A DNA stretch of 25,471 nt from a virus. Where the stretch lies: positions 1 to 25,471 of IMG/VR virus record IMGVR_UViG_3300021957_000272; one strand, given 5' to 3'. The position numbers and the translations under genes are program-made. Shown in pieces: positions 1 through 17,981 of the stretch; the stretch's first letter is position 1, and each line of letters begins with the position of its first letter. The notes beneath the pieces are model-generated. The model saw only the letters and a list, made by a program, of their open reading frames with translations. It had not been told where the DNA came from and made no database searches.

Positions 1-1
1 G

Positions 2-67
2 GTCGTGCCAGCAAAGCCTGAGACTGTCATGCGCCAGAAAACCCTAACGCTAAAGGAGATTGACTGA
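2..67 (+). CDS. C-terminal end of an unidentified protein, cut by the left edge
   Basis: This frame is open from the window edge and ends in TGA at 65-67. The 21 visible residues end in TLTLKEID. The stop overlaps the ATG of the next gene in a TGATG arrangement, and the Shine-Dalgarno sequence of that gene (AAAGGAG, 52-58) lies inside this frame. That is typical of two genes in one operon with coupled translation. Too little is visible to name a family. Reality of the gene is inferred from the coupling alone. Confidence 0.55.
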   Translation, partial: VVPAKPETVMRQKTLTLKEID

Positions 68-282
68 TGCCGCCAAAGCGCTCAGAAAGCTCGTGGAAGC
101 CGATTGTTAACGCGGTTGCAGCTTACCACCGCCACAACGGCTACGGCCCGACAGTGAACGAAATAGCCTATGCCGTGGGTCGATCCAGAACAGCCGTCAG
201 GTTTCAATTGGAACGGTTGTTAGAGGATGGGGTGCTTACCCACACGCCCGGCAAGATCAGAACGATCAGGGTGGTTGAATAG
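67..282 (+). CDS. Stand-alone LexA-like winged helix-turn-helix DNA-binding protein
   Basis: This 71-residue basic protein looks like the N-terminal DNA-binding domain of LexA. It contains YGPTVNEIAYAVGRSRTAV around residues 26-44, matching the LexA pattern 'PTVREIA..LG.S..TV', followed by an L-rich helix and a wing ending GKIRTIRVV. There is no room for the Ser/Lys self-cleavage peptidase of true LexA, so it cannot be an SOS-type autoproteolysing repressor by itself. ATG 67 has a strong AAAGGAG eight bases upstream and overlaps the previous stop. It is on the strand opposite all virion genes and converges on them, so it probably belongs to the early or regulatory half of the genome. Its target is unknown; control of phage early or late promoters is a guess. 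Confidence 0.85.
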   Translation: MPPKRSESSWKPIVNAVAAYHRHNGYGPTVNEIAYAVGRSRTAVRFQLERLLEDGVLTHTPGKIRTIRVVE

Positions 283-284
283 AT

Positions 285-311
285 AAGGGGGCGAAAGCCC
301 CCTTATTTTTT
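285..311 (+). terminator. Rho-independent terminator between convergent operons
   Basis: A perfect 8-bp stem AAGGGGGC / GCCCCCTT (285-292 and 297-304) closes a GAAA tetraloop and is followed by A and six T on the plus strand (305-311). It lies three bases after the stop of the LexA-like gene. The hairpin also covers the TAA of the minus-strand holin-family gene. On that strand it is followed by mixed sequence rather than a T run, so it should work mainly for the rightward transcript. Confidence 0.9.
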
Positions 312-668
312 GGGTCGTTGCTGGATGCTTTCGACTACGCCGCCACCAAAGTAAAAACCAAGGATGATCAGCATTGCATAGTTGATCGTGAACTGATCCA
401 TCACCTTGGTCACTGCGTCCGGGTCGCCCCGGCCAGTGATTGTCATGCCAAGCACCAGCATATAACTGCCCAGAAACGTAGCCCCAAACATCAGGGCAAG
501 ATAGCGTTGGGCAATTTTGAATGGGGCATACGCCGCCATCAGATCAATCTTGGCTTTGCTCTTTGCCGCAATTGCTTCCTCATCAGAGGTGTGCATGTCG
601 TCAATGAGCTTCATGCCCTGACTGATCACGTCACCTGACCCTAATATTTTTCCTAATACAGCTAACAT
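303..668 (-). CDS. Three-helix holin-family protein (GTA_holin_3TM type)
   Basis: The 121-residue protein matches the gene-transfer-agent/phage holin family with three membrane segments. The diagnostic stretch is YAPFKIAQRYLALMFGATF, followed by a hydrophobic helix (about residues 55-76) and a second one (about 93-113, ending ILGFYFGGG); the N-terminal part is amphipathic. Its presumed role is to permeabilise the inner membrane for lysis or particle release. I chose ATG 668 over the GTG at 671 because it overlaps the upstream stop as TGATG and sits seven bases from AGGAG. It is the last gene of the leftward operon and lies near the endolysin, which fits a lysis role. Another holin candidate lies at 2548-2721. 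Confidence 0.8.
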   Translation of the reverse strand: MLAVLGKILGSGDVISQGMKLIDDMHTSDEEAIAAKSKAKIDLMAAYAPFKIAQRYLALMFGATFLGSYMLVLGMTITGRGDPDAVTKVMDQFTINYAMLIILGFYFGGGVVESIQQRPKK

Positions 669-880
669 CACTCAACTCCTAACATTCTGGATAGACCAAA
701 AACTTCCATCAACATAAATGTAAAAAACAAAAGCAGCACACCCCCGGCAATCAGTTTGCCGCTAAAATTTGTTGAGCCTATTTTGATAGCCACAAATTCG
801 TTGCCTAAAATTCTCAGCACAAGCTCAAAACTATTTTCGCCAACCTTGGCCTCAACCGGCTTTTTGTTTTCTTCACCCAT
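668..880 (-). CDS. Small single-pass membrane protein of the lysis region, function unknown
   Basis: The 70-residue protein starts MGEENKKP and has a charged, soluble N-terminal half containing FELVLRILGNEFVAIKIGS. One strong transmembrane helix follows near the C-terminus (about residues 43-63, KLIAGGVLLLFFTFMLMEVF). I set the start at ATG 880 because the upstream bases code for a DUF1289 protein in another frame whose stop overlaps this ATG by eight bases, and AAGG precedes it. The longer reading to TTG 970 is therefore unlikely. Its place between endolysin and holin suggests a lysis accessory role such as spanin or holin modulator, but no motif proves it. Confidence 0.7.
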   Translation of the reverse strand: MGEENKKPVEAKVGENSFELVLRILGNEFVAIKIGSTNFSGKLIAGGVLLLFFTFMLMEVFGLSRMLGVE

Positions 881-989
881 CTGCCTTTTTCCCGCGACTG
901 ATGATCTCATCAATCGTTCTGCCGCAACCAATGCACCTGACACGATCCTCATCCAGAACGCATACACCAACGCAAGGGCTTTTACTCAT
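873..989 (-). CDS. DUF1289-family mini-protein (predicted Fe-S or zinc binding)
   Basis: A 38-codon ORF fills the apparent gap after the endolysin. It begins MSKSPCVGVCVLDED and continues RCIGCGRTIDEIISRG. The cysteines at 6, 10, 19 and 22 (C-x3-C-x8-C-x2-C) followed by GRTIDEI match the DUF1289 family (YdhL-like, predicted Fe-S proteins common in proteobacteria, usually about 60 residues). Metal binding is inferred from the four cysteines. ATG 989 lies inside the last codons of the endolysin gene and the TGA overlaps the next ATG, so it is embedded in the coupled lysis operon. Upstream GAGG is about ten bases away, which is a modest site. What a phage does with a DUF1289 protein is unknown to me. 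Confidence 0.8.
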   Translation of the reverse strand: MSKSPCVGVCVLDEDRVRCIGCGRTIDEIISRGKKADG

Positions 990-1431
990 CTGCCAAAGCC
1001 CTCATTCTCTTGACCAGTCTCTCTGAACGGTTCGGAAGCTGCCTTGCCCACTTGCTGTCGAGCATCTCTAATGCAGCCCCAGCCCATTGACGCTCAACAA
1101 CGCAGCGTTTCATGCCCTTAAATTTTTTCATAGTTGGCAGACCCATATTAAACATCATGTTGGCGATGATGCGCTGAGCCTCTTCTGGTAGTTCGCTGAA
1201 ATCCTCATAGAGCCGATGGCAATCCTCGCGCACAATCGCAATGTCCAGATCAAATAGCTGCTTCATGCGGCGTTCAGTGATCGTGTAGCCCAGTGGCTTA
1301 CCGTATTCTGCGTCACCCTCGATGATCCGATGGCCCACGCCAATCGTGAAATGCCCAGCCGTGCATTTATACACGTCCAGCCTCATGCCCTCATCAGCGA
1401 TTAGCTCTTCGCGCAGTTTTTCGATATCCAT
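982..1431 (-). CDS. Endolysin, T4-type lysozyme (glycoside hydrolase family 24)
   Basis: The 149-residue muramidase would cleave the MurNAc-GlcNAc bond of peptidoglycan. The N-terminus shows the GH24 core: LIADEG, then VYKCTAGHFTIGVGH. Aligned with T4 lysozyme E11-D20-T26, the residues are Glu14, Cys23 and Thr29 (numbered from ATG 1431), with the same E-x8-[D/C]-x5-T spacing. Cysteine in the Asp position is a known natural variant in phage endolysins and keeps activity in T4 lysozyme. The C-terminal half has NMMFNMG and a helical WARQLPNRSERLVKRMR end, as expected for the fold. No signal peptide or SAR segment is visible, so export should depend on a holin. ATG 1431 overlaps the upstream stop (TGATG) with GAGG upstream; the GTG at 1434 is an alternative. 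Confidence 0.93.
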   Translation of the reverse strand: MDIEKLREELIADEGMRLDVYKCTAGHFTIGVGHRIIEGDAEYGKPLGYTITERRMKQLFDLDIAIVREDCHRLYEDFSELPEEAQRIIANMMFNMGLPTMKKFKGMKRCVVERQWAGAALEMLDSKWARQLPNRSERLVKRMRALADE

Positions 1432-1850
1432 CACAGCCTCATTTCCAGAACGTGATCAACCGTCTTAGCCCAGCTATCAGCCTCTTCCTTAGCCGTGAAG
1501 CGCGACGCTGGCAACCGCATACTATATTGCCGTACTGACGTAACCGGCATGAACAGGCACCGTCTGGTATTGGGTGAAACAAGGCACAAAACATCGTAGT
1601 CGTCTTTCGTAGGCAGTTTTTTAGTTTTGCAACCGTGACCAAGACTAAAGTGATGCCGGGCTGACTTATGATGGCAATGCACAGCCAGCGTGGCCGTCTT
1701 AACTTGAACCCTGATAAAAGTCTGTTCACAAAACGCAAGTACGTCAATCCTATCCATTGGGCAGTGGGTCGCTTTCCAACCGCCATCCATACTGAGGATA
1801 GCCGCAAGAGCAGTATGCTCACCAATCAGCCCGGTTGTTGTCTCACTCAT
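1431..1850 (-). CDS. PD-(D/E)XK-type nuclease-like protein
   Basis: The 139-residue protein has the layout of small restriction-endonuclease-fold nucleases, such as the group I intron endonuclease/Holliday-junction-resolvase-like PD-(D/E)XK group. It shows LIGEHTALAAIL with Glu11 in the first helix, then MDRIDVLAF with Asp36, then FIRVQVKTA with Gln49 and Lys51 (the [E/Q]-x-K motif). It has His/Cys-rich loops and a C-terminal helix with WAKTVDHVLEMRL. Family assignment rests on this spacing and is moderately secure; activity and substrate are unknown. It overlaps the preceding gene by eight bases and the endolysin start by one base (TGATG), so it is co-transcribed with lysis genes. A junction resolvase for packaging, or a host-DNA or competitor-DNA nuclease, are both possible. 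Confidence 0.7.
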   Translation of the reverse strand: MSETTTGLIGEHTALAAILSMDGGWKATHCPMDRIDVLAFCEQTFIRVQVKTATLAVHCHHKSARHHFSLGHGCKTKKLPTKDDYDVLCLVSPNTRRCLFMPVTSVRQYSMRLPASRFTAKEEADSWAKTVDHVLEMRL

Positions 1851-2352
1851 TTAGCCCAATGGCCCCGGCTGTTGATACCATAACCGCTATAAACAATCCT
1901 ACCACAACAACCACCAAAGCAAAAATAGCCAGACCTATTTTCATATTCTCAATGGCCTCATCGTGTGCAATAGCAGCTTCCCTTTGAGCCTTTAGCCTAG
2001 CCTCTTTTTGTTCGCGCAGAGCCTTGTTGTGGTGGTTAATGATTTCCTGCCACGTTGATGGTTGATCCGCTGGCTTAGGCCAACGCATATTAATCATCTG
2101 TGCGATCTGCTGCATTTCCTCATTCAGACGCTTGCTTTCAAGAACCGCGTCAATGCTGCCCTTAAAGCTAATGTCGCCAACCCCGGCTTGCTTGTTGCGT
2201 TCCTCGTTCAGTTTCTTTTGCGCCGAGAACAGTGTGCCGATCTGTTCGCCAAGATCAGCCACAGATTGAACATCGTTTACCCTAGCTTTTATAAATGCTA
2301 TGGCATTTGAGGCGGCGGTTACTGCTGCTATGGCTGTGGTAATAGGTTCCAT
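1843..2352 (-). CDS. Coiled-coil protein with C-terminal membrane anchor, function unknown
   Basis: The 169-residue protein starts with a moderately hydrophobic helix MEPITTAIAAVTAASNAIAF. A central helical part follows (residues about 35-95), then a charged Ala/Lys/Glu coiled coil (KALREQKEARLKAQREAAIA, about 114-133), and a strong transmembrane helix near the C-terminus (GLAIFALVVVVVGLFIAVMV, about 143-162). Proteins of this build sit near lysis or tail genes in many marine phages, but no function is established to my knowledge. ATG 2352 overlaps the upstream TAA (TAATG), which I prefer to GTG 2385. A spanin-like or membrane-remodelling role is only a possibility. Confidence 0.7.
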   Translation of the reverse strand: MEPITTAIAAVTAASNAIAFIKARVNDVQSVADLGEQIGTLFSAQKKLNEERNKQAGVGDISFKGSIDAVLESKRLNEEMQQIAQMINMRWPKPADQPSTWQEIINHHNKALREQKEARLKAQREAAIAHDEAIENMKIGLAIFALVVVVVGLFIAVMVSTAGAIGLNE

Positions 2353-2555
2353 TAAGACAGCATTCCTTTCCTCAGCGGCAGACACTTGTAAGATTTTGCT
2401 AGAAGGTCGCCGGGCAGTTCGCCAACGTCTTGTGCCATCTCATGCACTCGATCAACACAAGCCTCGTAGGATTTCCACGGCCCGCGAAAATCATGTAGCT
2501 CTATGCAATTTGTTGGAGCGCTTAAAGAGCAAGCTAGAACGACAGCCTTAAACAT
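2352..2555 (-). CDS. Small cysteine-containing protein with short hydrophobic N-terminus
   Basis: The 67-residue protein begins MFKAVVLACSLSAPTNCIEL and contains DFRGPWKSYEACVDRV and a C-terminal KCLPL. Cysteines are at 9, 17, 33 and 58. This 'LACS..P..C......RGP....AC..R' pattern is a recurring hypothetical protein of marine phages. The N-terminal hydrophobic run is too short for a confident signal peptide. V-L-A-C at 6-9 looks like a degenerate lipobox, which would make it a lipoprotein (o-spanin-like), but this is speculative. The start overlaps the upstream putative holin by eight bases and the stop overlaps the next ATG (TAATG). Confidence 0.7.
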   Translation of the reverse strand: MFKAVVLACSLSAPTNCIELHDFRGPWKSYEACVDRVHEMAQDVGELPGDLLAKSYKCLPLRKGMLS

Positions 2556-2721
2556 CGCCTTGGCGACCAGTCAACCGCTTTACAGTCTCGGTTTCCCAGA
2601 TACGCAGTAACCACCAACACAACGCTACCAGCGCAGTAATCTCAGGCAATGCCTCAAAAAACGCACCGATAGTAATGCCTCCGAAAGCTAAGTCAGCCGT
2701 TGTCTTGGTTTCTTCGGTCAT
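2548..2721 (-). CDS. Putative small holin (57-residue membrane protein)
   Basis: This ORF fills the space between the tail-fibre chaperone-like gene and the Cys-containing gene. Its product begins MTEETKTTADLAFGG and has two short hydrophobic segments, ITIGAFFEAL and ITALVALCWWLLRIW, then a basic tail WETETVKRLTGRQGDV. The pattern (charged N-terminus, small hydrophobic hairpin, 'W.ET.TV..L' end) resembles small class II-type holin candidates near lysis genes of marine podoviruses. TAG of the upstream gene lies seven bases before ATG 2721; AGGTGA is close upstream. It overlaps the next gene by eight bases. Function is inferred from size, topology and position. Confidence 0.7.
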   Translation of the reverse strand: MTEETKTTADLAFGGITIGAFFEALPEITALVALCWWLLRIWETETVKRLTGRQGDV

Positions 2722-2728
2722 AGGTCAC

Positions 2729-3088
2729 CTATGCGTAAGGGTTATCACCACAACAAGAAGGCCAAGCTGCTTTCAGTTCTGCAATACTGGTTGCACTATC
2801 ACCGGCAGTCGGTGCGTCACGCAGGGCTTGCTTAGATGCCACAATTGCTGCGGTATCCGCGCCGGTTTCTTGCGCCTTCATAAAGTCGGCATCCAATGCT
2901 TCAAGCAGAGGCTTACGAGCTTCACGAACCTTGTCAGCAAAAATCTCTTTGGCTTTTGTCAGGTCTTCTGAAATAACAGAACCATTCAGTACCCAAGCAC
3001 CACGAAAATCACGGTTTGCTGGAACGGTAGCAGTTGAAGCGTCAATCTGATTACCGTCCTTATCTACGATGTATGTTGTTACAGCCAT
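2729..3088 (-). CDS. Tail-fibre assembly (chaperone)-like protein
   Basis: The 119-residue protein contains RDFRGAWVLNG (residues 26-36), a run of charged helix (KAKEIFADKVREARKPLL), LDADFMKAQETG and the C-terminal element KQALRDAP. This order matches phage tail assembly chaperone / tail-fibre assembly helper proteins, where R-x-F-R-x-AW and 'Y/K-x-x-LRD' recur. Such proteins help fold or attach receptor-binding fibres. Its position two genes downstream of the tail fibre fits. AGGA precedes ATG 3088, and the gap to the upstream stop is nine bases. It shares the R-x-[FW]-R-x-AW motif with the neighbouring gene 3098-3556. Confidence 0.7.
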   Translation of the reverse strand: MAVTTYIVDKDGNQIDASTATVPANRDFRGAWVLNGSVISEDLTKAKEIFADKVREARKPLLEALDADFMKAQETGADTAAIVASKQALRDAPTAGDSATSIAELKAAWPSCCGDNPYA

Positions 3089-3097
3089 TAGTTTTTC

Positions 3098-3556
3098 CTA
3101 TGCGGCTAGTTCATCAGATATACGCCACGCATTGCGCCACGTTCTTGTTTGCGGTAACTGTTCCTTGCGGCATATTACCATAGTCGGGCGGTTGCCCTCA
3201 TTCCAAGTCTCGACCACATGCTGTGGGCAGTCTTTCATTATGAGATATTCAATTGCTTCTTCTTCAGTCATTGCTTCAACAGGCTCTGTCTGATGCAGCA
3301 AGTAACCTCTTGTATGCTTCTTGAAGTCAGGTTGCGCTTCGTCCTTTGCCAGTTCGTGATACACCCACACAGGCGGCAAGATACCGCCCTGCAATGCACA
3401 CGCCATCCAGTTAGGGTCAGGTACAAGTATCTTTGCACATTCGTCTATGCTGTCCTCATACACTACACGATAGTCTGACTGCACACCGTCTAGGTTTTCT
3501 TTAGCCCAGCATAGTCTGTCAAATAGGTGTGTGCCTTTGAAATCTGGCGTTTGTAT
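3098..3556 (-). CDS. Tail-fibre-associated protein with apparent AUA start
   Basis: A canonical start gives 128 residues from GTG 3484, but no Shine-Dalgarno precedes it and the 24 upstream codons in the same frame read like real protein (PDFKGTHLFDRLCWAKENL). That extension begins at an ATA (3556-3554) overlapping the tail-fibre TAA as TAATA, where other junctions in this window have TAATG. GGAG lies ten bases before it, and seven before a preceding ATA. No ATG, GTG or TTG exists between the upstream in-frame TAG and 3484. The 152-residue product contains YRVVYEDS, LPPVWVYHEL and a C-terminal TRTWRNAWRIS that resembles tail-fibre assembly proteins. Function is inferred from context. The start could be a true AUA, a point mutation or a base-call error. 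Confidence 0.7.
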   Translation of the reverse strand: MQTPDFKGTHLFDRLCWAKENLDGVQSDYRVVYEDSIDECAKILVPDPNWMACALQGGILPPVWVYHELAKDEAQPDFKKHTRGYLLHQTEPVEAMTEEEAIEYLIMKDCPQHVVETWNEGNRPTMVICRKEQLPQTRTWRNAWRISDELAA

Positions 3557-6201
3557 TATGCTAAGTCTCCGAACATTGTGGAAAAACTATTTAAATCAGT
3601 ATTAGTTCTGTTAAAGCTGGCACTCACATAATAAGTTTCAAAGTCATACCCACCTGTGAATTTGCGTGTCCTAGTTAAATCGTGTGCGAGAATTAAAGTA
3701 GAATTTCCACCATCTTCTATACCCATAGCAATAGAATATTTATTATTACTAAATGATGACGTTAAATTGATTCCACCATCTCCTGTATTATCATCATCTA
3801 ATGAAGAGACATTCAGACTGTCATTTATACTTGCTTGCCCAGCAGGTATGTCAATCCAAGCCTTCGCCAAACCTTGAACAATATTTGTGGTTGTAGCACC
3901 GCCCTCACTTGGAATTGTCGAGGAAGCAGTCAAACTTGCGGCTGGCAAATTTGTCAGCCCAGAGCCATCCCCAGTTACCGCTGTGGCTGCTAATGTGCCT
4001 GTCACAGATACGCCAGTGGTTGTGGTGGAGAGTTTAACTGCGTTGTCGTAGTAAAGATTGACTGCGCCATTTGTTATGAATGTAGCTTTATTTTCAGTCA
4101 GAGAACTGCTTGTAATAAGCACATCACTGTCGCCGCCTATATATAAATTGCCAGCACCATTATCTCTTACAATACTTAAAGAACCGTTGTGAACAATCTC
4201 CAAGTCAGACCCAGCACCAAAGGTGGCCTTGTCGTTGTCGCCAAAGGTAATGTAGTTACCATTGGTGTCTAGGTTTCCACCCAATTGAGGAGTGGTATCA
4301 CCAACAACATCTGAAGCCGGCATATTGGTAAAGTTATTTGCGTCAAGATAGTAAGTGCCTTGCTGACCATCTAGCAAATCAGCGTCTAAACCACTAGCTG
4401 CTCCATCAACTGTTTTAACAGCGGTAAGCAGTTCGCTTGCAGTTTGATCGGCTGTAGCACCAGCCTCAATGCCATCCAGCTTAGTTCCGTCTACAGATAC
4501 GTCACGCCCATCAACAGTCTCAGACCCAGAGAATGTAAGGTTGCCTGTTAGCTGCCCACCAGACAACGGCAAAAAGCCAGAACCAGCAGTTACCCCAGAT
4601 TCCCAAGCAGTTCCATTATAAACCTTCAAAGTGTCAGACGTTGTGTTGAAGAACAAATCGCCTTCATCTAGGCCTGTTGTTGGGTCTGTTGCACCGCTGC
4701 GATACACTTCTGCAAAAGATGTAACGCCGGAAACATTTGCAGCAACGGTTTGAATAGCGTTAGTTGCTGTTGTTCCATCTTCAATATCAGCCAGTGTCGC
4801 AATGTCAGTAGCGCGGTCGGCAAGCGTATCCATATCTGTAACAATTGCAGCAGTGCCAAGCGTATTCATGTCAGCAACAGCGTCAGCCGTACCAAGCAAT
4901 CCTACCTCTGTAGCAACGCCAGAAACATTGCTTAAATGCGTTGTGTTGATCCCAGCTACGGTTGTTATGTCACTGTCAATTCCAGCGACAGTTGTTACGT
5001 CACTTTCAATTCCAGCAACAGTGTTAATATTTGTTTGATTAGAAACCGTAGGTGTTAACTGTAGCCAACTTGTCGTGGCTAAGTTGTAAACCTTCATCAC
5101 ATCGTTGGTTGTGTCGAAATATAACGCACCGTCAGCAAGCGCATTTCCATCATTGTCCAGTGTTGGGTCAGACGCTTTGGCTCCAAGCATCGCATCATCG
5201 AACAAATCCAACGCTGCTTCTGCGCCTGTTTGTGCAGCTTCTGCGGCTGTTTGTGCAATTTGTGCGTTTACTCTTGCTGTTGTAGCAAGGCCAGCTTGTG
5301 TTACTGCATTTTGAGCTTGAACAAGAGTAACTTGGTAATAATGCAGCGCAGAATATCCTGTGCTGCCATCGCTCAAAGTGTATTGAACTTCAAAAGCAGT
5401 ATTAACTATTTTATCTGCATCATCCGCCTCTGTTGCTGCGTTAGTTGCGCTTGTTGCTGCGTTAGTTGCGCTTGTTGCCGCGTTTGTTGCAGACGTAGTT
5501 GCAGATGCAGCATCCACCAGCAAATCCCATTTTGCACTGTCTGTGTTCGTGGTTAACGGCTCAGAGCCAGAAGATGTGTGCGCTGTGTTAGCAATAAAAA
5601 TATTGTTTGTGCTTGTGTCTTTAACAATATCCCTGACATCGTATGAAGTGCTTGCAGCCCAATCGCCTTTAAAATCACCAATTTCTGTAACGGCCTCTGG
5701 ATTACCAGTAGTTAAATTAAACTGAAGCAACTTGCCCGCCCGGTCAGCTTTAGCTGGCAAAGTCATATCCAGTGTGCCGCCGTCAGCCACTAGCGCTGGG
5801 TCATACACTGGCGCTCTCATTGAGCGTTGACCCTCTTCAGCAAGTTGCTGATCAAAAATTGTCAGCGCATCAAGCTGCTCATTCAAGCTAGACGCAAGCA
5901 AATCACCGGCAGTCACAAAGTCTGTGACGCGCTCAATGTCACGCGCCCCAATAATGATGATTGTGTCTGATGCAGTTGGTGTTGATGGCACACCAGAACC
6001 AGTCACAATTGTAACTGAGCCGGTGCCGTTGGCATTTACCACAACCGTGTAATCAGTTGTTAGTGTTAGCAGCGTCGTGTTGAAATAAACAGCCACGTCG
6101 TTTTGGTCGAGTACCTCAAACGAAAACGCATACGGCCCCAGCCCGGCTGACCCGGTAAACACGACACGGCGTGTAACTGCATTGATGTTATAGTCTGCCA
6201 T
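3556..6201 (-). CDS. Tail fibre / receptor-binding protein with T7-type N-terminal domain
   Basis: The 881-residue protein starts with a virion-attachment domain like T7 gp17 (about residues 1-150: VTRRVVFTGSAGLGPYAFSF, LTTDYTVVV, then RDIERVTDF and LNEQLDALTIFDQQ). An Ala/Thr/Ser repeat shaft follows (SATNAAT units, about 235-258). Two copies of a 'G.L.F.TT.D..KVYN...W' module come next (about 355-380 and 512-538), with TTVAGIDSDI repeats between them. A beta-rich region (LSGGQLTGNLTFSG; VDGTKLDGIEAGATA; DADLLDGQQG) and a short C-terminal tip complete it. No intramolecular chaperone peptidase motif is visible. GAGG is six bases before ATG 6201. The role is host receptor recognition; the receptor is unknown. 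The tip-coding end is visibly AT-richer than the rest. Confidence 0.9.
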   Translation of the reverse strand: MADYNINAVTRRVVFTGSAGLGPYAFSFEVLDQNDVAVYFNTTLLTLTTDYTVVVNANGTGSVTIVTGSGVPSTPTASDTIIIIGARDIERVTDFVTAGDLLASSLNEQLDALTIFDQQLAEEGQRSMRAPVYDPALVADGGTLDMTLPAKADRAGKLLQFNLTTGNPEAVTEIGDFKGDWAASTSYDVRDIVKDTSTNNIFIANTAHTSSGSEPLTTNTDSAKWDLLVDAASATTSATNAATSATNAATSATNAATEADDADKIVNTAFEVQYTLSDGSTGYSALHYYQVTLVQAQNAVTQAGLATTARVNAQIAQTAAEAAQTGAEAALDLFDDAMLGAKASDPTLDNDGNALADGALYFDTTNDVMKVYNLATTSWLQLTPTVSNQTNINTVAGIESDVTTVAGIDSDITTVAGINTTHLSNVSGVATEVGLLGTADAVADMNTLGTAAIVTDMDTLADRATDIATLADIEDGTTATNAIQTVAANVSGVTSFAEVYRSGATDPTTGLDEGDLFFNTTSDTLKVYNGTAWESGVTAGSGFLPLSGGQLTGNLTFSGSETVDGRDVSVDGTKLDGIEAGATADQTASELLTAVKTVDGAASGLDADLLDGQQGTYYLDANNFTNMPASDVVGDTTPQLGGNLDTNGNYITFGDNDKATFGAGSDLEIVHNGSLSIVRDNGAGNLYIGGDSDVLITSSSLTENKATFITNGAVNLYYDNAVKLSTTTTGVSVTGTLAATAVTGDGSGLTNLPAASLTASSTIPSEGGATTTNIVQGLAKAWIDIPAGQASINDSLNVSSLDDDNTGDGGINLTSSFSNNKYSIAMGIEDGGNSTLILAHDLTRTRKFTGGYDFETYYVSASFNRTNTDLNSFSTMFGDLA
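4951..5040 (-). repeat. Three 30-bp direct repeats in the tail-fibre gene
   Basis: Units at 4951-4980, 4981-5010 and 5011-5040 (the last diverged) encode the 10-residue repeat TTVAGIDSDI. The first two differ at only a few positions. They make a regular segment of the fibre shaft and are a natural place for length change by recombination. Confidence 0.75.
5432..5494 (-). repeat. 21-bp tandem repeats coding SATNAAT heptads
   Basis: Units 5432-5452 and 5453-5473 are identical 21-mers, followed by a degenerate third copy at 5474-5494. They encode seven-residue Ser-Ala-Thr-Asn-Ala-Ala-Thr repeats, the length of one heptad, fitting a trimeric coiled-coil stalk next to the T7-type N-terminal domain. 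Identical copies suggest recent slippage or selection for length variation. Confidence 0.85.
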
Positions 6202-6237
6202 TTAATGCCTCACATTCTGCTGTGAATAATACACTAT

Positions 6238-9105
6238 TTACTGTTTTTCCGCTACCCGCTCTCGCAGTTCTGGATATTGATCCATTAAGATCTTCCGAGC
6301 CACACTAGAATACTTGCTGTAAATTGCTTTCATTGCATCCAGCTTGTCTTCTTTGGTAGGCAATTGATCATATATTGATGAATACAACAGATCTGTCAGC
6401 GCGTCTTTTAGCATAGGCTTGGTGGGGTCTGGTTGGTTCAATGCGTAAATCAATGAATTGTACTGCTCGTTATTAAGGATCACGCCGCTGATGCGCTTGC
6501 TTGGCATTGACAAGCCATCGCCAAGCTCCATCATTTCGCGATCTAGCCCCTCATACTTTGCGTCCATAATGCGAACAGGTGACCACATTTCCCAGCCAGC
6601 CCCGGTGCCTTGTGTGCGAACCTCGCCCCATAAATTTAGGGATGGCGGCAAATCAGCGCTAAACATTGGATGCCGAGCTTTGGCTTTTTGGATGGCTGTG
6701 TAAAAGCCCCTAGACGCAGGGTTAAGCAATGTCGGATCGTCACCAAAAAATCCTTCGCCGGGCAGCAGTGTACTTGACGCCGTTGGATCCATAACGCGCT
6801 CAATGCCAGCGCCCAAGGATGATACGGTCGGGATGATTTGCAACGCGGCTGTCGTGGCTCTTTCAGCAAAAAACGACTGTGCCTCTTCGTAAGCTAGCTT
6901 AGGATCAGCGTTATTTAAGATCCGGGCGAGATCTGACACACCATCTAAGAATGGCTGCTGCATTGCGTAGTTATATAAACCAAGCGCACCGGCTGTTGTT
7001 AGGTTTTCTAAAACGCCGTTATCATCCTCATACTGAGCATAATACGAATAGTCAGCAGACATAGCCAACAAGCCCGACAGCGGATCGAGGCGCGAGTAAG
7101 TTACGCCGCGATATGTGCCGTCGTCCATTTTAAAGTTGACAGTGTGCGGCTTGAGGCCAAGGCGCTCCATAGCCTGACGCGCTTGCGGGTCTGTTGGCCC
7201 AGCCCCCATAATAATTATGTTGTTGTCAGGCGTGTGCAGCCCGCCGCCCATCCACGCAAAGCCAACCATTAGAGCAGACCCAGTCATAATCTTTGCTAGT
7301 GCCGTATCAGCTTCACGGCCACCAGCAAGTAATGACCTGCGGATATCGGGGTATAAAAGCGCTAAGGGTGATCTTTCTGCAACGGCGTTCATAACATTGA
7401 CCGGCGTTTTAAAGAACGGCGCACCAAACAATTTAACAGCGGGATGCGACATAAAGCCCTGCATCTCACCAGCAAAGCCGCCCAAATCGCCTTGGAACGT
7501 CAATACCTTTGCAGCTTCACGCGCTGTTTCCATTGCTTTTTGGTCTGGGTTTTCAAGCGCTCTAACATACTCAGCAGCAGCCAAGTCTGACGCCTCGGAT
7601 TTAGGTGTGCCGCCTTCCACCAGCCGGTCGTAAAAATCATACTGGCGCTGGCGGGCTTGTTGCTTGATTGACGTGCGGTAGGCGAAAGCCTTAAAAAACT
7701 CATCTTCTGCCAGCATCGCCCGGCCAGACATTCGCACATAGGTGCCGACAGTATTTAACGCCCCGGCTGCAACATTGCCATCTTTGATCTGCTTGTAAAT
7801 CTCAACAATATCACCAGTGTCGCCAATAGCGCGTCTGTTTCTAACATCAATTTTACTGGCAAGATCACTAGCCTCTTCTTTTACAAAAGCCTTACCCGAC
7901 ACAACAAGCGCGTCAATAAAACTGGTGCCAATTGTTTCAAGCCTAATTAAGCCATCACGCGCATAGGCTCTGTCTTTTGGATTAACGCCGCCGGGTCTAA
8001 TTCTGTTGACGCCAGTGTTACCGATAGCGCCAGCCACCATTTCCTCTAAGCTCTTGGTAAGCATAAAGACCGAGTTGCCAGCGACGTTTACAGAGTGGGT
8101 GACTGGATTTGACAAGATTGAGTTGATAAAGACCTCAGTCAAAACATCACCGCCACGTTGCATAATGCCTCTAACTAGCTTTGTTTTTGCGGCTGGGTTT
8201 GGCAGTGACAAATACAAGCTGCCAAGATGCTCAATATTAACGCCTTCGTTTTCTAATATGTTTAGCAGCTCATCAGCGCGGCGCAAATCAATGCCCACTG
8301 TTTGCGCTTGCTGCATTGCCCGCATCAATCTGGCGCTTTCACTAACAGCGCCTGATAGGTTTGAGTACAACGCAAATTCCATTGTGAGGTACTGGGCGGC
8401 ATCAGCAAATAATTTTCGACGCATCTCTGGATCAGTTGCATCAGCAGCAAACTCAAAAGCCTCTTGTGTTTTGCGCGTTAGATCTCGCGCCAATATCAAA
8501 CCGGCCAGAACGTCCTCAGCCACATCGCCCCTGCCGGGCTGACGTGTGAGCCATTTCTTTAGCACCTGATCCGCGCCTTGCTGCTCTGCCAGTTCTAGCA
8601 TTGAGTTATAATTAATCGTGCCGCGCCGGGCGCGTTCAAACAAATCTTTGTTTAGCTCTTTGATGTTCGCCATATAACCGGCGAGATCAAAGTCACCCGA
8701 CGCATTCATGATTGCCGGAAGGTTCAACCCCTTTTCAAAAGTGATATCCAGCACACCTTCAAGCGCGTCAATGTCCTCTTGGTTGGCTTGGCGTATGACT
8801 GTGCTGCCGCCAATGACCTGCACATCTTTTTCTGGGATCTTGGCGGTAACCCTCTTTTCGGCCTCAGCGGTTTTGCGCTTAACAAAGCCAACCGCGCCGG
8901 TAACTGCATCGTCAAGTAAGCTGGCAACTTGCACCGGCTCATCCGGCAACGACACTGGGTTGTTAAGCTGCACAACCTCTTCTGGCGTGACAGGCGCTAA
9001 GTCCTCTTGCTCAGTCGTGACCTCATCAGACGCACCAAATGAAATCTCTTCCATTTGTTGAGCCTTAGACATTTCATCCATTTCTTCGCTGAGATCACGC
9101 GCCAT
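6238..9105 (-). CDS. Large internal virion / ejection protein with LPD38-like region
   Basis: The 955-residue protein has an acidic, disordered-looking N-terminus (to about residue 60) and a long helical body including SILSNPVTHSVNVAGNSVFM. About residues 552-690 contain HPAVKLFGAPFFKTPVNVM, then ALMVGFAWMGGG, then RGVTYSRLDPLSGLLAM. This order (FF.TP.N, short hydrophobic helix, 'Y.RLDP') resembles the polyvalent-protein-associated domain LPD38, found in very long phage and conjugative-element proteins thought to enter the host with DNA. By position it corresponds to the T7 gp16 slot (last large internal protein before the fibre), though no transglycosylase motif is visible. ATG 9105 has GGAG seven bases upstream, two bases after the previous stop. 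Role in genome ejection is inferred. Confidence 0.75.
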   Translation of the reverse strand: MARDLSEEMDEMSKAQQMEEISFGASDEVTTEQEDLAPVTPEEVVQLNNPVSLPDEPVQVASLLDDAVTGAVGFVKRKTAEAEKRVTAKIPEKDVQVIGGSTVIRQANQEDIDALEGVLDITFEKGLNLPAIMNASGDFDLAGYMANIKELNKDLFERARRGTINYNSMLELAEQQGADQVLKKWLTRQPGRGDVAEDVLAGLILARDLTRKTQEAFEFAADATDPEMRRKLFADAAQYLTMEFALYSNLSGAVSESARLMRAMQQAQTVGIDLRRADELLNILENEGVNIEHLGSLYLSLPNPAAKTKLVRGIMQRGGDVLTEVFINSILSNPVTHSVNVAGNSVFMLTKSLEEMVAGAIGNTGVNRIRPGGVNPKDRAYARDGLIRLETIGTSFIDALVVSGKAFVKEEASDLASKIDVRNRRAIGDTGDIVEIYKQIKDGNVAAGALNTVGTYVRMSGRAMLAEDEFFKAFAYRTSIKQQARQRQYDFYDRLVEGGTPKSEASDLAAAEYVRALENPDQKAMETAREAAKVLTFQGDLGGFAGEMQGFMSHPAVKLFGAPFFKTPVNVMNAVAERSPLALLYPDIRRSLLAGGREADTALAKIMTGSALMVGFAWMGGGLHTPDNNIIIMGAGPTDPQARQAMERLGLKPHTVNFKMDDGTYRGVTYSRLDPLSGLLAMSADYSYYAQYEDDNGVLENLTTAGALGLYNYAMQQPFLDGVSDLARILNNADPKLAYEEAQSFFAERATTAALQIIPTVSSLGAGIERVMDPTASSTLLPGEGFFGDDPTLLNPASRGFYTAIQKAKARHPMFSADLPPSLNLWGEVRTQGTGAGWEMWSPVRIMDAKYEGLDREMMELGDGLSMPSKRISGVILNNEQYNSLIYALNQPDPTKPMLKDALTDLLYSSIYDQLPTKEDKLDAMKAIYSKYSSVARKILMDQYPELRERVAEKQ

Positions 9106-9107
9106 AG

Positions 9108-11642
9108 CTATTCTCCGATCCCCAGAGCGCGTAGGCTCACTGGGTCTAGCGTTGTAAGTTCTGATGCGCCTCTTTGAAGGCTGGCCCCCATACCTCTTCC
9201 ACCATCTCCAACGCCCCCTCGATTTCCTCCGGCGTCACCTGATCCGCTTGGCCGTTGTTGTCCAGCAACACCTGATCCAATGCGTGGTTCAATATCCCCA
9301 CCTCCGGTTTGGACATATTCAAAACCCGATCCCCTAAGACGGTCTGCACCTTCTGAGATAAACGTATCTGTTGCTGTTGATCTAACATTTTCATCACCTT
9401 TCCATTTCATAATAACAAGGTCTGGCTTTCCCTTTGTTTCGTCCCACCCGGACGCCTTCCATTGCCTTGTAATTCTCTTGTATTTTTCTTCACTGCCGCC
9501 AAATGCCGGGTCACGCAGATAGCTTTCGTTATACGGTATTCTTTCAACCTCTACAAACCCAAATTGAGAATAATATTTTGGTAAAAACCCTTTAGGATAT
9601 TTTGCTGATGGCACGGCATAGGCATCAAGAACGGTTGCGCCCTCTTGAAGCGCTTTTAAAATGGACGCTGACCCAATGCCTTTGCCAACAGATCCGGCCT
9701 CATTATTCATAACCCCAACAATAGAGGTTTCATTTGGCGTCAATTCTGGGCTTGTTGCCCCATACATTTCTGCATAGTTTGTATTTTTATTTAAGCCAAA
9801 ATAAACTTTTCCAGCGTCCTTACCCTGACTGCCAAGCGCATAAAACACCAACTCACCTGTCTTTGCTTTTTTTGCCAATTCAGATTTTGTGTATGTTGAC
9901 AAGGTTGCAGATAATGCGTTTTCTTGTGTTGCTTTGATTATTTCAGCGCCACCCATACCCAATGGGTTCCTGTTCTTTGCAGGCCCAACAGGATTGGCAG
10001 TTGATCTCCAGTTACCTTGAACAACATCTTGAACTAGTTTTGCTTGTCTAGCGCTTTTTATAAAACCCGGCTCTGCGGTTGGTATTTTAGCCAACCTTTC
10101 TGGCGTTAACTCCGCTGTTGGCAAAGCCATAGTTAAGGCTCTATAAGCGCTTGCTGGGGTGCTACCAGTTGCCATTTTCCCCGAAAGATACTCATCAAAT
10201 ATATCATCAACCCGCACACCATAAGGTATTTGCGCCACAGGCTCGCCAAACAACCCTATGGGATAGGATGGGTGGGGTACGCCACCTTCAACAGCCCTAA
10301 CATCAACCGGGGATTTTTTGTCCATTTTAATTAAAACAGACCCCTGACCGATAGGATAACCAGCCTCAGTTGGGTTTATTGTTTCGTTAATTATTCTGCT
10401 AACCGGGGGTGCGCCCAGTTCTCTCATTCCCGGCGCGTCAAGGGCGTCAGCAATAGCCGCTCTTGTTTCAAAAGATTGGCTCTCTAACCAAGGTAACGCC
10501 TCATCAGAGAAAATGTCAGGCATACCAGAAAATTTTGCGCTTAATGATTGAGATATGGCAGATTGATTTTCTGGTGATATGTAACCCTCATCCGCATATG
10601 ACCTCATTTGCCTATGCAAGATATTGGCAAAATCAATATTAGATCTGTGCGCCCTTGGTGACATTGTAGAAACCAGCATATAATCAGCGCCACTATTTGC
10701 TATGCGATTTGCTATCTTTGGGTCTAATGACGCAAACCCAAGGCCTTGCTTCCTAGACGTTTCCAATGTCCCATAACCAGACCCGCCCTTTAATGGCCTT
10801 GGCTCAATTGGAGCTTCCGACAGGCCTTCATATGCGCGACCAAAATCCAACATATCGGCTGGAACAAATACAACTTTTTTACCAGCTATATTTTCTATTG
10901 GAAAATCATTTGACCCAACACGCGGCAAGGTAACAGACACCTTGGTTAATTCCTCAATTGACTGACCACCTTTACCCATCAGCTTCTGAGCGCCTACAAT
11001 AGCTTCATCAACTATCTGGGTAGGGTCTACATTCATACCAAGCGTGACGCCCTTCTGCGCCTCTTCTAGGCGGGCTGGTGCGCCTGCTGCATAATCAGCA
11101 ACAGCACCAGCCGTGGCCTTAGCAGCTTGCGGCGCGACAAGCCCCATCGAGGCAAACTCGCCAGTTAGATATCCCTGCTTTAAACCTTGCTTGAACTCTG
11201 GGCTAATATCCAAGCCCTCAACAAATCCATCAAACAATTCACCGGCTTTTTCAGAACCAAGTGTGCCGGATATGGCGCTCCATCCTTTTTGGAACTCATC
11301 CCATCCCTGACCCTTTTCCGCCAAAGCTGCTTTTAAGCCGCCGAGACCCAAAGCAAAAAGATCTGGCACCCCTGTTGCTACAGCGGCAGGAACGCCTACA
11401 AAAGAGCCAAGCATAGTGCCGCTAACCTCAGCCTCAGTAACTGGTGCGCCAGCTTGCTCAGACAGCGGGTATATGCCGCGATAATCGCCGGGGCCAGCCG
11501 CCTGCACTTTCTCCATAGACATAGCTCGGTCATAAACGCGCCGCATACGGTAGCTGCCAGCGTCATCGCGAACAGTCTCAATTGACCCGCCGCTTTCAGC
11601 CGCAATGATAGTGTTCATCATTTCTTGTGCTATATCGGTCAT
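9108..11642 (-). CDS. Large internal virion protein with C-terminal GNAT-like domain
   Basis: The 844-residue protein lies between two other large internal proteins and overlaps the upstream gene by ATGA, so it is probably packaged in the head and ejected. Residues 1-250 are helical and Ala/Gly-rich. Residues about 255-500 contain a mixed alpha/beta region (KKVVFVPADMLDFGRAYEG; GADYMLVSTMSPRAHRS) that I cannot assign. Residues about 595-743 look like a GNAT acetyltransferase fold: ELVFYALGSQGKDAGKVYFG, then SIVGVMNNEAGSVGKGIGSA with the acetyl-CoA-loop-like GKGIG, then LPKYYSQFGFVEVERI, the 'YY..FGF' strand typical of GNATs. The remaining C-terminus is Gly/Arg/Ser-rich and overlaps an 80-codon ORF in another frame. 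GNAT assignment is by motif reading only; catalytic activity and substrate are unknown. Confidence 0.75.
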   Translation of the reverse strand: MTDIAQEMMNTIIAAESGGSIETVRDDAGSYRMRRVYDRAMSMEKVQAAGPGDYRGIYPLSEQAGAPVTEAEVSGTMLGSFVGVPAAVATGVPDLFALGLGGLKAALAEKGQGWDEFQKGWSAISGTLGSEKAGELFDGFVEGLDISPEFKQGLKQGYLTGEFASMGLVAPQAAKATAGAVADYAAGAPARLEEAQKGVTLGMNVDPTQIVDEAIVGAQKLMGKGGQSIEELTKVSVTLPRVGSNDFPIENIAGKKVVFVPADMLDFGRAYEGLSEAPIEPRPLKGGSGYGTLETSRKQGLGFASLDPKIANRIANSGADYMLVSTMSPRAHRSNIDFANILHRQMRSYADEGYISPENQSAISQSLSAKFSGMPDIFSDEALPWLESQSFETRAAIADALDAPGMRELGAPPVSRIINETINPTEAGYPIGQGSVLIKMDKKSPVDVRAVEGGVPHPSYPIGLFGEPVAQIPYGVRVDDIFDEYLSGKMATGSTPASAYRALTMALPTAELTPERLAKIPTAEPGFIKSARQAKLVQDVVQGNWRSTANPVGPAKNRNPLGMGGAEIIKATQENALSATLSTYTKSELAKKAKTGELVFYALGSQGKDAGKVYFGLNKNTNYAEMYGATSPELTPNETSIVGVMNNEAGSVGKGIGSASILKALQEGATVLDAYAVPSAKYPKGFLPKYYSQFGFVEVERIPYNESYLRDPAFGGSEEKYKRITRQWKASGWDETKGKPDLVIMKWKGDENVRSTATDTFISEGADRLRGSGFEYVQTGGGDIEPRIGSGVAGQQRPSGSGDAGGNRGGVGDGGRGMGASLQRGASELTTLDPVSLRALGIGE
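9146..9388 (-). CDS. Candidate overprinted gene inside the 3' end of the GNAT-like virion gene
   Basis: This 80-codon ORF lies entirely within the gene at 9108-11642 in another frame of the same strand. Its ATG (9388) follows AGGTGAT, a seven-base match to the end of 16S rRNA, at suitable spacing. The product (MLDQQQQIRLSQKVQTVLGD ... TPEEIEGALEMVEEVWGPAF) is an acidic, well-mixed helical sequence, whereas the host frame over the same bases is low-complexity Gly/Ser/Arg. That contrast suggests the small frame is the constrained one here. I do not recognise a family. It could be a chance ORF; conservation across relatives would decide. Confidence 0.5.
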   Translation of the reverse strand: MLDQQQQIRLSQKVQTVLGDRVLNMSKPEVGILNHALDQVLLDNNGQADQVTPEEIEGALEMVEEVWGPAFKEAHQNLQR

Positions 11643-13381
11643 TGTTCAAGTGCCGCCCGGTTGCGTTTCACGACAGTAATTGCGTCTAATAGTTTGTTGT
11701 GGCTTTCTTGGTGATTTGTATTGTTTTCTAGAATACTGGATGATTTTAATGCAATTTCATCAAGCGCATCATCTGTGTCCATCTTTGCAAGACCCATACG
11801 CAATTGTTTATTTTTAATGTTTTTGATTACGTTTAGCGCCGCCGATATCTCATCTTGCAAACGCTTTTTCACATTGCCGCGCTGAATGAATTTATCAGCC
11901 CAGTCAATCCGATCTAGATTTGGGGTTTGTGTAATGGCTGCGTCTAACTCAACTATGCCATCCATCACAAGCCTAGCGGCCTCACTTCTTTCACTCCCCG
12001 GATCAAGCGTTAACATACCAACATCAGGGATGCCAAACGCGCCTTTAATCTTGTTGATAGCCTGCGTTCTAAATGTATCTCTGTTAGACTTTATTACAGT
12101 CAGATATTTTCTAGCGCTATCTAGCGTAATTTTTCTATTTGCCCTCGCGTCTAAAACATCTTCAACGGTCAGAAACTTGTCCATACCCTTTTGGTCTAAC
12201 ATTAGAATTGTATCTGGATCATCATTGCCGCCCTTAACAAAATACGCATCATTAAACTTTGATGCTTTATCTGGGTCTATATCACGCAACGCAATTATCT
12301 TTGCCCGGACAACCTCATCATCAGCGTCGCCATCAATTAAAAATCCAGTAAGCTCAACTTCTAAATCTCTTGCAGCGGCCTTTCTTTGGCGTTCATCTCT
12401 TGCATCTTGCTGTGCCTCTCTTGCATATACATCATTGATTGCAGTGTTTGATCTTTTAAAGGCTTCAAGGCGCTCCTCTGAGTTAAGAGACAGAGCAATG
12501 TTTGCGATCCCATTATCTGTGATTTTCATCTTGCCGGTGTTTAATGTATCTAATATTTCTTGGCTGTTTTTTAGCGGGTCACGCAAAACATATTCGCCTA
12601 TGGCGTTTATTTTGGCGTCGCTAACAGCCTTATCAAAGTTCTCCATTGAGGTTACTAAAAACGCTGGATCTTCAATCTCATCAGCAAACTTAGCTAGTTT
12701 CGATTTTTCACTAAAAATAATCCCAGCCATTTCATCTGGGCTTTTTGCTGCGCGGTTAATAACCATCTGGCCTATGTCAGTAATAATTTGGTCAGCGCCC
12801 TTTTTGGCAAGGTAATCAGCTTGCTCTTCGGCTTTCGTAGCCATCATTTTAACGTGAGTTGTATAGGCGGTGTTGCCGATAGTTGACAGGCCAAGGCGCA
12901 ATTTAGCGCCGGTCGCCGGATCAACATCAGTCATCGCGCCACTAAAGCCGTTAATAACGCCGTCAATCTGACTTTGGAGTTTAACAACATTTGTAAAGTT
13001 TACATGACCCTCAACTGCTATTTGCTTGATTGCATCACGCGCTGCTATCTCAAGGTTAGCCGCAACAGTGTTTAGCGCCGCCTGCCGCTCTGCTCTGCCG
13101 CGCACGGTTTCGGTGCTGCCGGGGATTAGCGCTTTTCTAGCCTCAGCATCCTCAGCCTTAATGAGATCAACAACGCTTGGCGCGTTGGCAGCGCCAAACT
13201 CAGCGCCCTCGATCTTTGCTTGTGTCTCATACTGCTGAAAAGCAAAACGCGACATTTGATCCAAAGATTGTGCAATTGTGTTCGCCACTCTAGCTTGCGC
13301 GGTTCCAGTGGCAACAAAGTTAACGCCGGGAAGCGACGCGATGCCAATGCCAAGCGGCCTATATTCTAGTGACCTAGCCAT
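11639..13381 (-). CDS. Internal virion protein (T7 gp15-like position)
   Basis: The 580-residue, mostly alpha-helical, charged protein begins MARSLEYRPLGIGIASLPGV. It has long Ala/Lys/Asp/Glu-rich helical stretches (YAREAQQDARDERQRKAAAR about residue 325) and no membrane segment or signal peptide. It follows the gp14-like gene with a TAATG overlap and precedes the two other large internal proteins, the gene order of the T7 internal core (gp14-gp15-gp16). No sequence motif ties it to gp15, so the role in forming the ejection apparatus is inferred from context. The region is AT-richer than the tail genes upstream. The Shine-Dalgarno is poor, so translation is likely coupled. Confidence 0.65.
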   Translation of the reverse strand: MARSLEYRPLGIGIASLPGVNFVATGTAQARVANTIAQSLDQMSRFAFQQYETQAKIEGAEFGAANAPSVVDLIKAEDAEARKALIPGSTETVRGRAERQAALNTVAANLEIAARDAIKQIAVEGHVNFTNVVKLQSQIDGVINGFSGAMTDVDPATGAKLRLGLSTIGNTAYTTHVKMMATKAEEQADYLAKKGADQIITDIGQMVINRAAKSPDEMAGIIFSEKSKLAKFADEIEDPAFLVTSMENFDKAVSDAKINAIGEYVLRDPLKNSQEILDTLNTGKMKITDNGIANIALSLNSEERLEAFKRSNTAINDVYAREAQQDARDERQRKAAARDLEVELTGFLIDGDADDEVVRAKIIALRDIDPDKASKFNDAYFVKGGNDDPDTILMLDQKGMDKFLTVEDVLDARANRKITLDSARKYLTVIKSNRDTFRTQAINKIKGAFGIPDVGMLTLDPGSERSEAARLVMDGIVELDAAITQTPNLDRIDWADKFIQRGNVKKRLQDEISAALNVIKNIKNKQLRMGLAKMDTDDALDEIALKSSSILENNTNHQESHNKLLDAITVVKRNRAALEQ

Positions 13382-13809
13382 TAAGCAATACTCGTTTTCA
13401 TCATTAACCCAGACCCAAACGTGCCAACACCGGCAGCAAAGCCAGCTTGTCTGGCGGCGCTGGCTTGCAACATATATTGATCAGCCTGCATATAACCGCC
13501 ACGCAAAGCGATAATCTCATTATTCTTAACGGTGTATAATTCCTTAACGCCCTTTGCCCGCGCTGCTTTCTTTAGGTTGTCCACATTGCCAAGCCCAATA
13601 CCACCATAAGCGTTGATGGTCGCTGCTGTGGCTATCATGTTATCCATTACCGCAACAGCCTGCTGCTTTTGCTTTAATGCCTCTTGTTGGGCTTCTAACC
13701 GCGTGTAACCGGCTTGCGCTTGTAAAGCAGCAGACTGCGTCTGCCCGGCTCTGTACTGCATAAATGCGCTGGCACCAGCAAGCGCTAATCCTAAACCACC
13801 ACCACTCAT
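13381..13809 (-). CDS. Internal virion protein, T7 gp14-like
   Basis: The 142-residue protein has a Gly/Ala-rich hydrophobic N-terminus (MSGGGLGLALAGASAFMQYR), a Gln/Ala coiled-coil (AALQAQAGYTRLEAQQEALK) and a Gly-rich C-terminal hydrophobic part (GFAAGVGTFGSGLMM). This build (hydrophobic end, Q/A-rich helix, central 'NAYGGIGLGN' loop) is that of small gp14-like internal or ejection proteins that insert in the host envelope in podoviruses. It sits directly after tail tubular protein B, overlapping it by ATGA, and before the large internal proteins. Assignment rests on architecture and order rather than strong identity. Confidence 0.65.
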   Translation of the reverse strand: MSGGGLGLALAGASAFMQYRAGQTQSAALQAQAGYTRLEAQQEALKQKQQAVAVMDNMIATAATINAYGGIGLGNVDNLKKAARAKGVKELYTVKNNEIIALRGGYMQADQYMLQASAARQAGFAAGVGTFGSGLMMKTSIA

Positions 13810-16013: not shown

Positions 16014-16014
16014 G

Positions 16015-16629: not shown

Positions 16630-16640
16630 TACGCCACTCC

Positions 16641-16674
16641 AAAATAGGGAAATGGGGCGGCTTGCGCCGCCCCA
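16641..16674 (-). terminator. Terminator-like hairpin between decoration and tail tubular A genes
   Basis: On the minus strand a 9-bp GC-rich stem (TGGGGCGGC/GCCGCCCCA, 16674-16666 and 16661-16653) closes a GCAA (GNRA) loop, followed by TTTCCCTATTTT. The T tract is broken by CCC, so it may be a partial terminator or attenuator that lowers expression of tail genes relative to capsid genes. It could also protect the 3' end of capsid mRNA. Confidence 0.65.
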
Positions 16675-16680
16675 CTATTG

Positions 16681-16953: not shown

Positions 16954-16968
16954 TTTCTACACTCCTTT

Positions 16969-17802: not shown

Positions 17803-17840
17803 TTTCCTATTCCTTTGTAAAAGTTAAAACACGATTTGAC

Positions 17841-17930
17841 GCCTAGCAGGTATCCTTCCGGGCTGCGGCTTGAGCATATACGCTACGCCCCCAAGCGTTT
17901 GCGACAGGTCGAAAGCCGATTGTCTGTCAA
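17841..17930 (-). promoter_or_regulatory. Structured leader upstream of the capsid gene
   Basis: Between the scaffold terminator and capsid ATG lie about 140 bases without an ORF. Three potential hairpins follow one another: GACAG/CTGTC (17928-17924 with 17907-17903); CGC-ACGC/GCGT-GCG with small bulges (17903-17881); and GCC-GCAG/CTGC-GGC with a 2-base bulge (17869-17841). A perfect TTGACA (minus strand 17930-17925) is present but no convincing -10 box follows at 16-18 bases. This may be a capsid-mRNA leader, processing site or phage-specific promoter region. Folding was done by eye. Confidence 0.4.
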
Positions 17931-17944
17931 GGGTGATTTTATAG

Positions 17945-17975: not shown

Positions 17976-17981
17976 CTTGCA

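Follow-up and report, generated by a model that had tools for sequence, protein, structure and literature searches.

Antiholins and lysis-timing proteins such as RI of phage T4 act through transmembrane (TM) or periplasmic domains. The gene described here likewise encodes a small accessory beside holin and endolysin genes but, unlike the products of the RI-like genes, its product has no hydrophobic stretch. It belongs to DUF1289 (Pfam: PF06945; COG3313; YdhL of Escherichia coli), a bacterial protein family without a known job, with which it has the SPCxGxC...CxGCGRTxDEI core in common. The binding of an Fe-S cluster by DUF1289 is a database prediction, COG3313 being titled 'Predicted Fe-S protein' in BFVD. 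In the accessible text, a library screen for resistance to H2O2 and HOCl lists the ydhL gene (PMC8228696). Viral genomes of the HMO-2011 type with iscU and erpA (PMC9038755), as well as viruses with iscU or A-type carrier genes (PMC5332604), are described in the accessible parts of two further papers.

As in the virus analyzed here, DUF1289 genes of cultured phages occur in tailed phages. The proteins of Oceanospirillum phage GJ44, Pseudomonas phage ZRG1, Roseobacter phage CRP-1, and haloviruses are 35-62% identical to the protein studied over the matched part. Unlike the gene studied, DUF1289 lies near genes for nucleotide metabolism or replication in five of the seven annotated records of cultured phages; in CRP-1 it is paired with a ribonucleotide reductase (RNR) gene. 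In the GJ44 record the neighbor is an amidase gene, and the accessible part of the published ORF list places DUF1289 there too (PMC8451122). No close relative was found among 50,697 phage records (best E 5e-3), a set from which records very near the window may have been left out. No report of DUF1289 as a lysis-cassette module was found in the accessible text of the open-licence literature.

The short DUF1289 gene in the window

The analyzed stretch, herein referred to as the window, comprises 25,471 bases of viral DNA (IMG/VR record IMGVR_UViG_3300021957_000272). The product of its 38-codon DUF1289 ORF, which starts with ATG on the minus strand, is MSKSPCVGVCVLDEDRVRCIGCGRTIDEIISRGKKADG. Features of the locus are collected in Table 1.

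Table 1. Features of the lysis cassette around the short DUF1289 gene (window coordinates).
Feature	Position	Strand	Evidence or remark
Short DUF1289 gene	873..989	-	38 aa; Cys4 = C6, C10, C19, C22; PF06945 41.8 bits
GAGGG, Shine-Dalgarno-like	999..1003	-	9 bases before DUF1289 ATG; sequence read
GGCAGATG, first copy	987..994	-	at DUF1289 start
GGCAGATG, second copy	878..885	-	at smallTM start
Phage lysozyme 'lyzA', T4-lysozyme type	982..1434	-	PF00959 44.9 bits; phrog_7 endolysin
One-TM 70-aa protein 'smallTM'	668..880	-	hydrophobic stretch 43-61; ATG overlaps DUF1289 stop
Holin-like membrane protein 'hol9646'	303..671	-	phrog_9646 (unknown function) E 3.8e-30; phrog_3427 holin E 0.043, weak
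PD-(D/E)XK-like gene, upstream of lysozyme	1431..1850	-	PF11645 25.0 bits, below cut-off 26.1; phrog_5018

An earlier note, made from the letters alone, had assigned these 38 residues to DUF1289 by their cysteines and a GRT-x-DEI motif. The pattern is present as described, C-x3-C-x8-C-x2-C followed by GRTIDEI, and the assignment was borne out by the Pfam search (E 9.3e-11, cut-off 27 bits, profile positions 1-26 of 47). A six-frame search of the whole record for DUF1289 gave a sole match (E 3.4e-12, profile positions 1-33). Every one of the 22 sequences in alignment A3, among them that of the window, matches PF06945 at E ≤ 0.001. The P, the four cysteines, G-CGRT, and EI are invariant across 51 aligned viral members, an invariance partly forced by a scan pattern that imposed CxGCGRTxDEI in most of them and by a regular expression that demanded the first two cysteines. 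The W that follows DEI is replaced by R in the window protein. This protein had no match in NCBIfam or PHROGs, and eight viral DUF1289 proteins gave no convincing PHROGs match (best E 0.035). From its four cysteines a metal site, either Fe-S or zinc, would be expected.

The description of this protein as much shorter than its cellular relatives also stands. From the first cysteine to the end it has 33 residues, compared to a cellular median of 52 (from 40 of 41 loci, one of them misread); thus, it ends about 19 residues earlier than cellular DUF1289, from which its place in a lysis cassette also sets it apart. The 41 cellular loci come from a scan of genome contigs (best 69% identity over 29 residues). 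Forty of them were read, L311 wrongly, and some ORF starts are too long; the other 39 are all longer than the viral short form. As the profile match ends at position 26 or 33 of 47, the C-terminal helical part of PF06945 (about 34-47) is absent from the window protein, which belongs to DUF1289 in all but this part. In structural models the missing part corresponds to a predicted C-terminal helix: the model of a long viral member (L182; pLDDT 79.5) has a helix at 39-56 without a counterpart in the AlphaFold model of the 38-mer (pLDDT 71, pTM 0.38). The 38-mer model had no match in PDB at E ≤ 10, and neither the L182 model nor sequence searches with DUF1289 gave anything credible in PDB. The best BFVD matches of L182 have E-values from 2.3e-3 to 1.7e-2, none reaching 1e-3, and three are titled COG3313.

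Conservation of the core with GRTxDEI and absence of the C-terminal helical tail of longer members would suit a mimic that displaces the host DUF1289 protein from its partner during infection. We regard this reading as unlikely: the genes flanking 35 cellular loci are mixed and, judged by eye, share no theme, and nothing ties the short form to the host's own DUF1289 protein.

The ORF occupies what looks like a gap, bounded by the lysozyme stop codon (984-982) and the start of the next gene (ATG, 880-878). Its own ATG (989-987) precedes the lysozyme stop, and its own stop codon (875-873) falls inside the next gene, so that it overlaps both neighbors by 8 bases. The earlier note had called both neighbors lysis genes; for the upstream one this follows from PF00959, and for the downstream one, smallTM, it is suggested by its position and the holin-like gene after it. 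smallTM has no match in the family databases searched (Pfam, PHROGs), and its homologues in two other loci without DUF1289 (L007 and L021) start with MGEENKKP at the corresponding junction. The holin-like protein has one hydrophobic stretch above the threshold.

Overlap with both neighbors and a length of just 38 codons are what might be expected of a chance, untranslated open frame within the lysis genes. This explanation is scarcely credible, given the PF06945 matches in the window and in every member of A3, the clean presence or absence of DUF1289 at the junctions listed, and variation mostly at third codon positions. Across 53 distinct core DNAs the median dN/dS is 0.046 (419 of 1,378 pairs), part of this core being forced by the scan pattern. 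For the 20 codons outside the pattern, among which the regular expression still demanded the cysteines, the median is 0.060 (52 distinct sequences, 393 of 1,326 pairs) and pN/pS is 0.12, with synonymous sites near saturation across the whole set; variable columns number 8 at first, 6 at second, and 20 at third positions. Within the 12 cores of group A, the gene order of the window (see below), pN is 0.043 and pS is 0.33 (ratio 0.13). The window ORF is therefore a real gene and, judging from these substitution patterns, the short gene is under purifying selection. Its translation is suggested by the overlaps, the codon pattern, and the GAGGG motif, which stands at the same place in 14 listed group A loci and is also lysozyme coding sequence. 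The earlier note had proposed inspection of the same gap in related phages; the frame is conserved there, with no loss of reading frame, in relatives retrieved by search patterns that demanded the cysteines.

The PD-(D/E)XK-like gene is present in the cassettes of most relatives fetched with the holin. Beside the cassette, positions 1843-2385 encode a 180-aa protein with a strong hydrophobic stretch (152-170), for which a spanin-like role can be guessed. The remaining window genes read as phage head, connector, tail, and terminase genes, and the phage is probably podovirus-like. Megablast of positions 1-20000 found nothing in the phage records. By the head-tail connector, the closest phage is Methylophilales phage MEP301 (67% identical), whose annotated lysis genes, in the accessible text, are unlike those of the window (PMC8024684).

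Short and long viral forms

A context-blind DNA pattern for CxGCGRTxDEI detected at least 120 stretches in viral contigs, 101 of them distinct after removal of repeats. Two are cut by contig ends (L118, near a SleB gene, and L128); the remaining 99 comprise, among the matches listed, 57 short and 42 long forms. A lysozyme, holin, or 2TM module was found within 1.2 kb of 55 of the 57 short forms and of none of the 42 long ones, again among the matches listed; many of the contigs are related, so these are not independent events, and the lysis-module queries were taken from short-form loci, so that other lysis genes near long forms could be missed. The short set listed consists of 53 forms near lysis modules and four others. 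Two of these, L145 and L174, are just over the tail limit, belong to the same subfamily, and lie near lysis modules. Of the other two, L200 has just 64 bases of contig upstream, and L149, in a neighborhood that looks cellular by eye, differs in sequence and falls outside this subfamily. The window gene belongs to the short DUF1289 subfamily of viral contigs, a variant of a family already known. Among the matches listed, this subfamily, cut to the cysteine core and kept by selection, is seen only among lysis genes.

The 42 long forms listed adjoin genes for SleB-type hydrolases (7), RNR (11), IscU/IscA (5), or T4-type gp23 capsid protein (3), or have unclassified neighbors (16); one neighbor of each kind was checked with Pfam, and two for RNR. 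As a control for the bias of the queries, 62 neighbor ORFs of 18 long loci were searched (14 unclassified, three gp23, and one RNR locus; two of the 16 unclassified loci were left out). All 25 families found with Pfam were non-lysis families, and no lysis family was among the 25 PHROGs families listed of 64. These neighbors include UvsY, helicases, radical SAM proteins (2), glutaredoxin (1), and RNR.

In five contigs (L182, L199, L093, L105, L140) the long DUF1289 gene adjoins an IscU-like gene (NifU_N, PF01592, by the Pfam check in L182), and in L182 and L199 it stands before an IscA-type gene (PF01521 in L182). In ten contigs (L084, L088, L090, L094, L104, L117, L136, L152, L170, L172) it follows and overlaps an RNR gene, and in five (L095, L097, L108, L134, L150) it comes after a SleB-type cell wall hydrolase gene, the two genes being 1 base apart or overlapping by up to 8. 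The RNR neighbor of L090 scores above the cut-offs for class II (B12-dependent) domains, that of L088 only below them. The SleB neighbor in L095, the one examined, has PF07486 and an N-terminal hydrophobic stretch. The location of long forms near iscU/iscA or class II RNR genes is in line with a metal or Fe-S site in DUF1289 and would fit it without proving it.

The same neighbors bear on the possibility that the short form is a late redox or Fe-S helper, or a host-takeover protein, that rides in the lysis cassette without acting on lysis. Besides the iscU/iscA (5 of 42) and RNR (11 of 42) neighbors of the long forms listed and the radical SAM and glutaredoxin genes near the 18 control loci, the published viral iscU, erpA, and A-type carrier genes and the listing of ydhL in the resistance screen point this way; small late genes could also settle readily in a lysis cassette. 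Other small modules are shuffled within this cassette too, and co-location may thus reflect mere shared expression. Against this reading stands the confinement of the short form to lysis cassettes (55 of 57 among the matches listed, the exceptions being the edge-cut L200 and L149 of another subfamily) in three different gene orders. We consider it the main rival of the favored reading, and somewhat less probable than that.

Gene orders, possible exchange, and phage lineages

In total, 63 distinct short loci, window included, were obtained from the scan and from loci fetched with the lysozyme (best 80 of 597) and with the holin-like protein (best 80 of 351). In 61 of the 63, among the matches listed, a gene for a lysozyme, holin, or small TM protein is the closest labelled neighbor on one or both sides within 1.8 kb; in the remaining two the contig ends 9 or 64 bases upstream. 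Three gene orders were found. The order of group A (14 loci) is lyzA > DUF1289 > smallTM, 2TM, or holin. The order of group B is holin > 2TM, EF-hand TM, or TM98 > DUF1289 > lyzB, and that of group C is holin > 2TM or smallTM > DUF1289 > a gene of unknown type called 'RLNQF'. In group C, smallTM precedes DUF1289 in one locus and follows it in another, and no lysozyme was labelled within 1.8 kb. The holin of one group C locus, L139, matches GTA_holin_3TM (PF11351) and the phrog_3427 holin; the label 'holin' for the other types is based on position and size.

The phages with these cassettes differ. A terminase of the HMO-2011 type (64-65% identical) was found in two of four group B records and in none of three A and five C records, the portal type of group C in all five C records, of which one is its source, and in no A or B record (seven compared), and the connector of the window in none of the 12 records compared, all of which may be fragments. 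The window terminase is 25% identical to that of HMO-2011 over 118 residues, and direct comparison of the window connector with the group C portal revealed no similarity. The module therefore crosses phage lineages; by these markers, the three gene orders are spread over at least three of them. A position in lysis cassettes of several lineages is what would be expected of a lysis-timing regulator. As far as gene neighborhoods can tell, the link to lysis is stronger than the earlier note had supposed, being found again in further lineages and under different gene orders.

The presence of the module is optional. DUF1289 was found in 11 of the 80 holin-fetched loci (best 80 of 351) and was not found in the other 69, four of which have less than 700 bases upstream; 25 of the 80 have the order lysozyme > smallTM > holin without it. 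Lysis does not need DUF1289, since it was not found in these 69 loci. Among 30 lysozyme loci examined (from the best 80 of 597; one is nearly without downstream DNA), 8 have DUF1289. In module-less loci other genes occupy its place, and no cysteine-less copy was found among the downstream ORFs listed.

Cultured Puniceispirillum phage HMO-2011 represents the empty form of group B. Its holin-like, 2TM, and lysozyme genes stand in the group B order, and its lysozyme is 69% identical to lyzB; unlike in group B, the 2TM gene is followed by the lysozyme gene with no intervening DUF1289. The annotated gp57 of this phage (37 aa, GTG start; L328:2804-3004) resembles the C-terminal end of a longer 2TM gene (66 aa) whose start lies upstream.

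In the window, copies of GGCAGATG flank the module (Table 1), and L212, which has no DUF1289, contains one copy at the junction. The run shared just before the two start codons measures 0-5 bases in 10 group A loci, those of the 14 in which the next start was found. Because this run is so short, exchange at a short repeat is only a suggestion. Within phage lysis cassettes, the short DUF1289 gene is a swappable accessory.

In four group C loci (L135, L144, L159, L100) the DUF1289 frame is open upstream into a hydrophobic, lipoprotein-like start within the 2TM gene. A lipoprotein reading of these forms was set aside, as the hydrophobic N-terminal part of the frame lies over the 2TM gene and may be open by chance.

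Possible role of the short form

Our tentative preferred reading, with a probability of about 0.45, is that the gene encodes a translated, soluble, Cys4 metal-binding mini-DUF1289, a swappable accessory of the lysis cassette that most likely modulates the timing or efficiency of the burst. The truncated protein would be made late, and overlaps of stop with start codons would couple it to lysozyme or holin-accessory genes. Its metal-folded knuckle would then bind a cassette protein or a host protein, and this binding would modulate when or how well the cell bursts. Late expression is suggested by the position of the gene, and the effect on lysis is our best guess from the gene neighborhood. An accessory of this kind, if it acts on lysis, would be new.

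An effect on lysis is held to be slightly likelier than co-expression alone because the short forms listed occur only in cassettes, and there in three orders. It is also favored because DUF1289 adjoins two other kinds of wall hydrolase, the SleB type and the amidase of GJ44. Several facts speak against a lysis role: the absence of DUF1289 from most of the holin-fetched relatives (best 80 of 351), the location of most long viral forms listed away from known lysis genes, their association with Fe-S assembly, radical SAM, and RNR genes, and the absence of a close relative among the phage records searched. The variety of adjoining genes (lyzA, lyzB, smallTM, 2TM, EF-hand TM, TM98), together with the lack of a labelled lysozyme in group C, argues against one dedicated partner.

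In a more specific version, close to the metal- or redox-sensing component of lysis timing that the earlier note had proposed, the mini-DUF1289 would be an Fe-S or zinc sensor that reads the iron, oxygen, or redox state of the dying cell with its Cys4 site, binds the holin or endolysin, sets the moment of lysis, and spreads between unrelated phages by exchange at overlapping start codons; we regard all of this together as quite improbable. Protection of a lysozyme thiol was considered too. The window lyzA has Cys in YKCTAGHFT where lyzB has Asp, a position that we take to be Asp20 of T4 lysozyme, and DUF1289 might have guarded this catalytic Cys. This candidate was rejected in view of lyzB and of DUF1289-free lyzA: in loci that were not deduplicated, lyzB adjoining DUF1289 has Asp in 30 of 32 cases (the other two were not read by the regular expression), and Cys-type lyzA also occurs without DUF1289 in 8 loci, in a set where 110 of 138 lyzA loci went unread by that expression.

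For a family without a known job, the phage short form offers a testable minimal version. Tiny genes such as this one are missed: the eight viral DUF1289 proteins searched have no convincing match in PHROGs, and in the phages CRP-1 and Rollin its matches fall where no gene is annotated.
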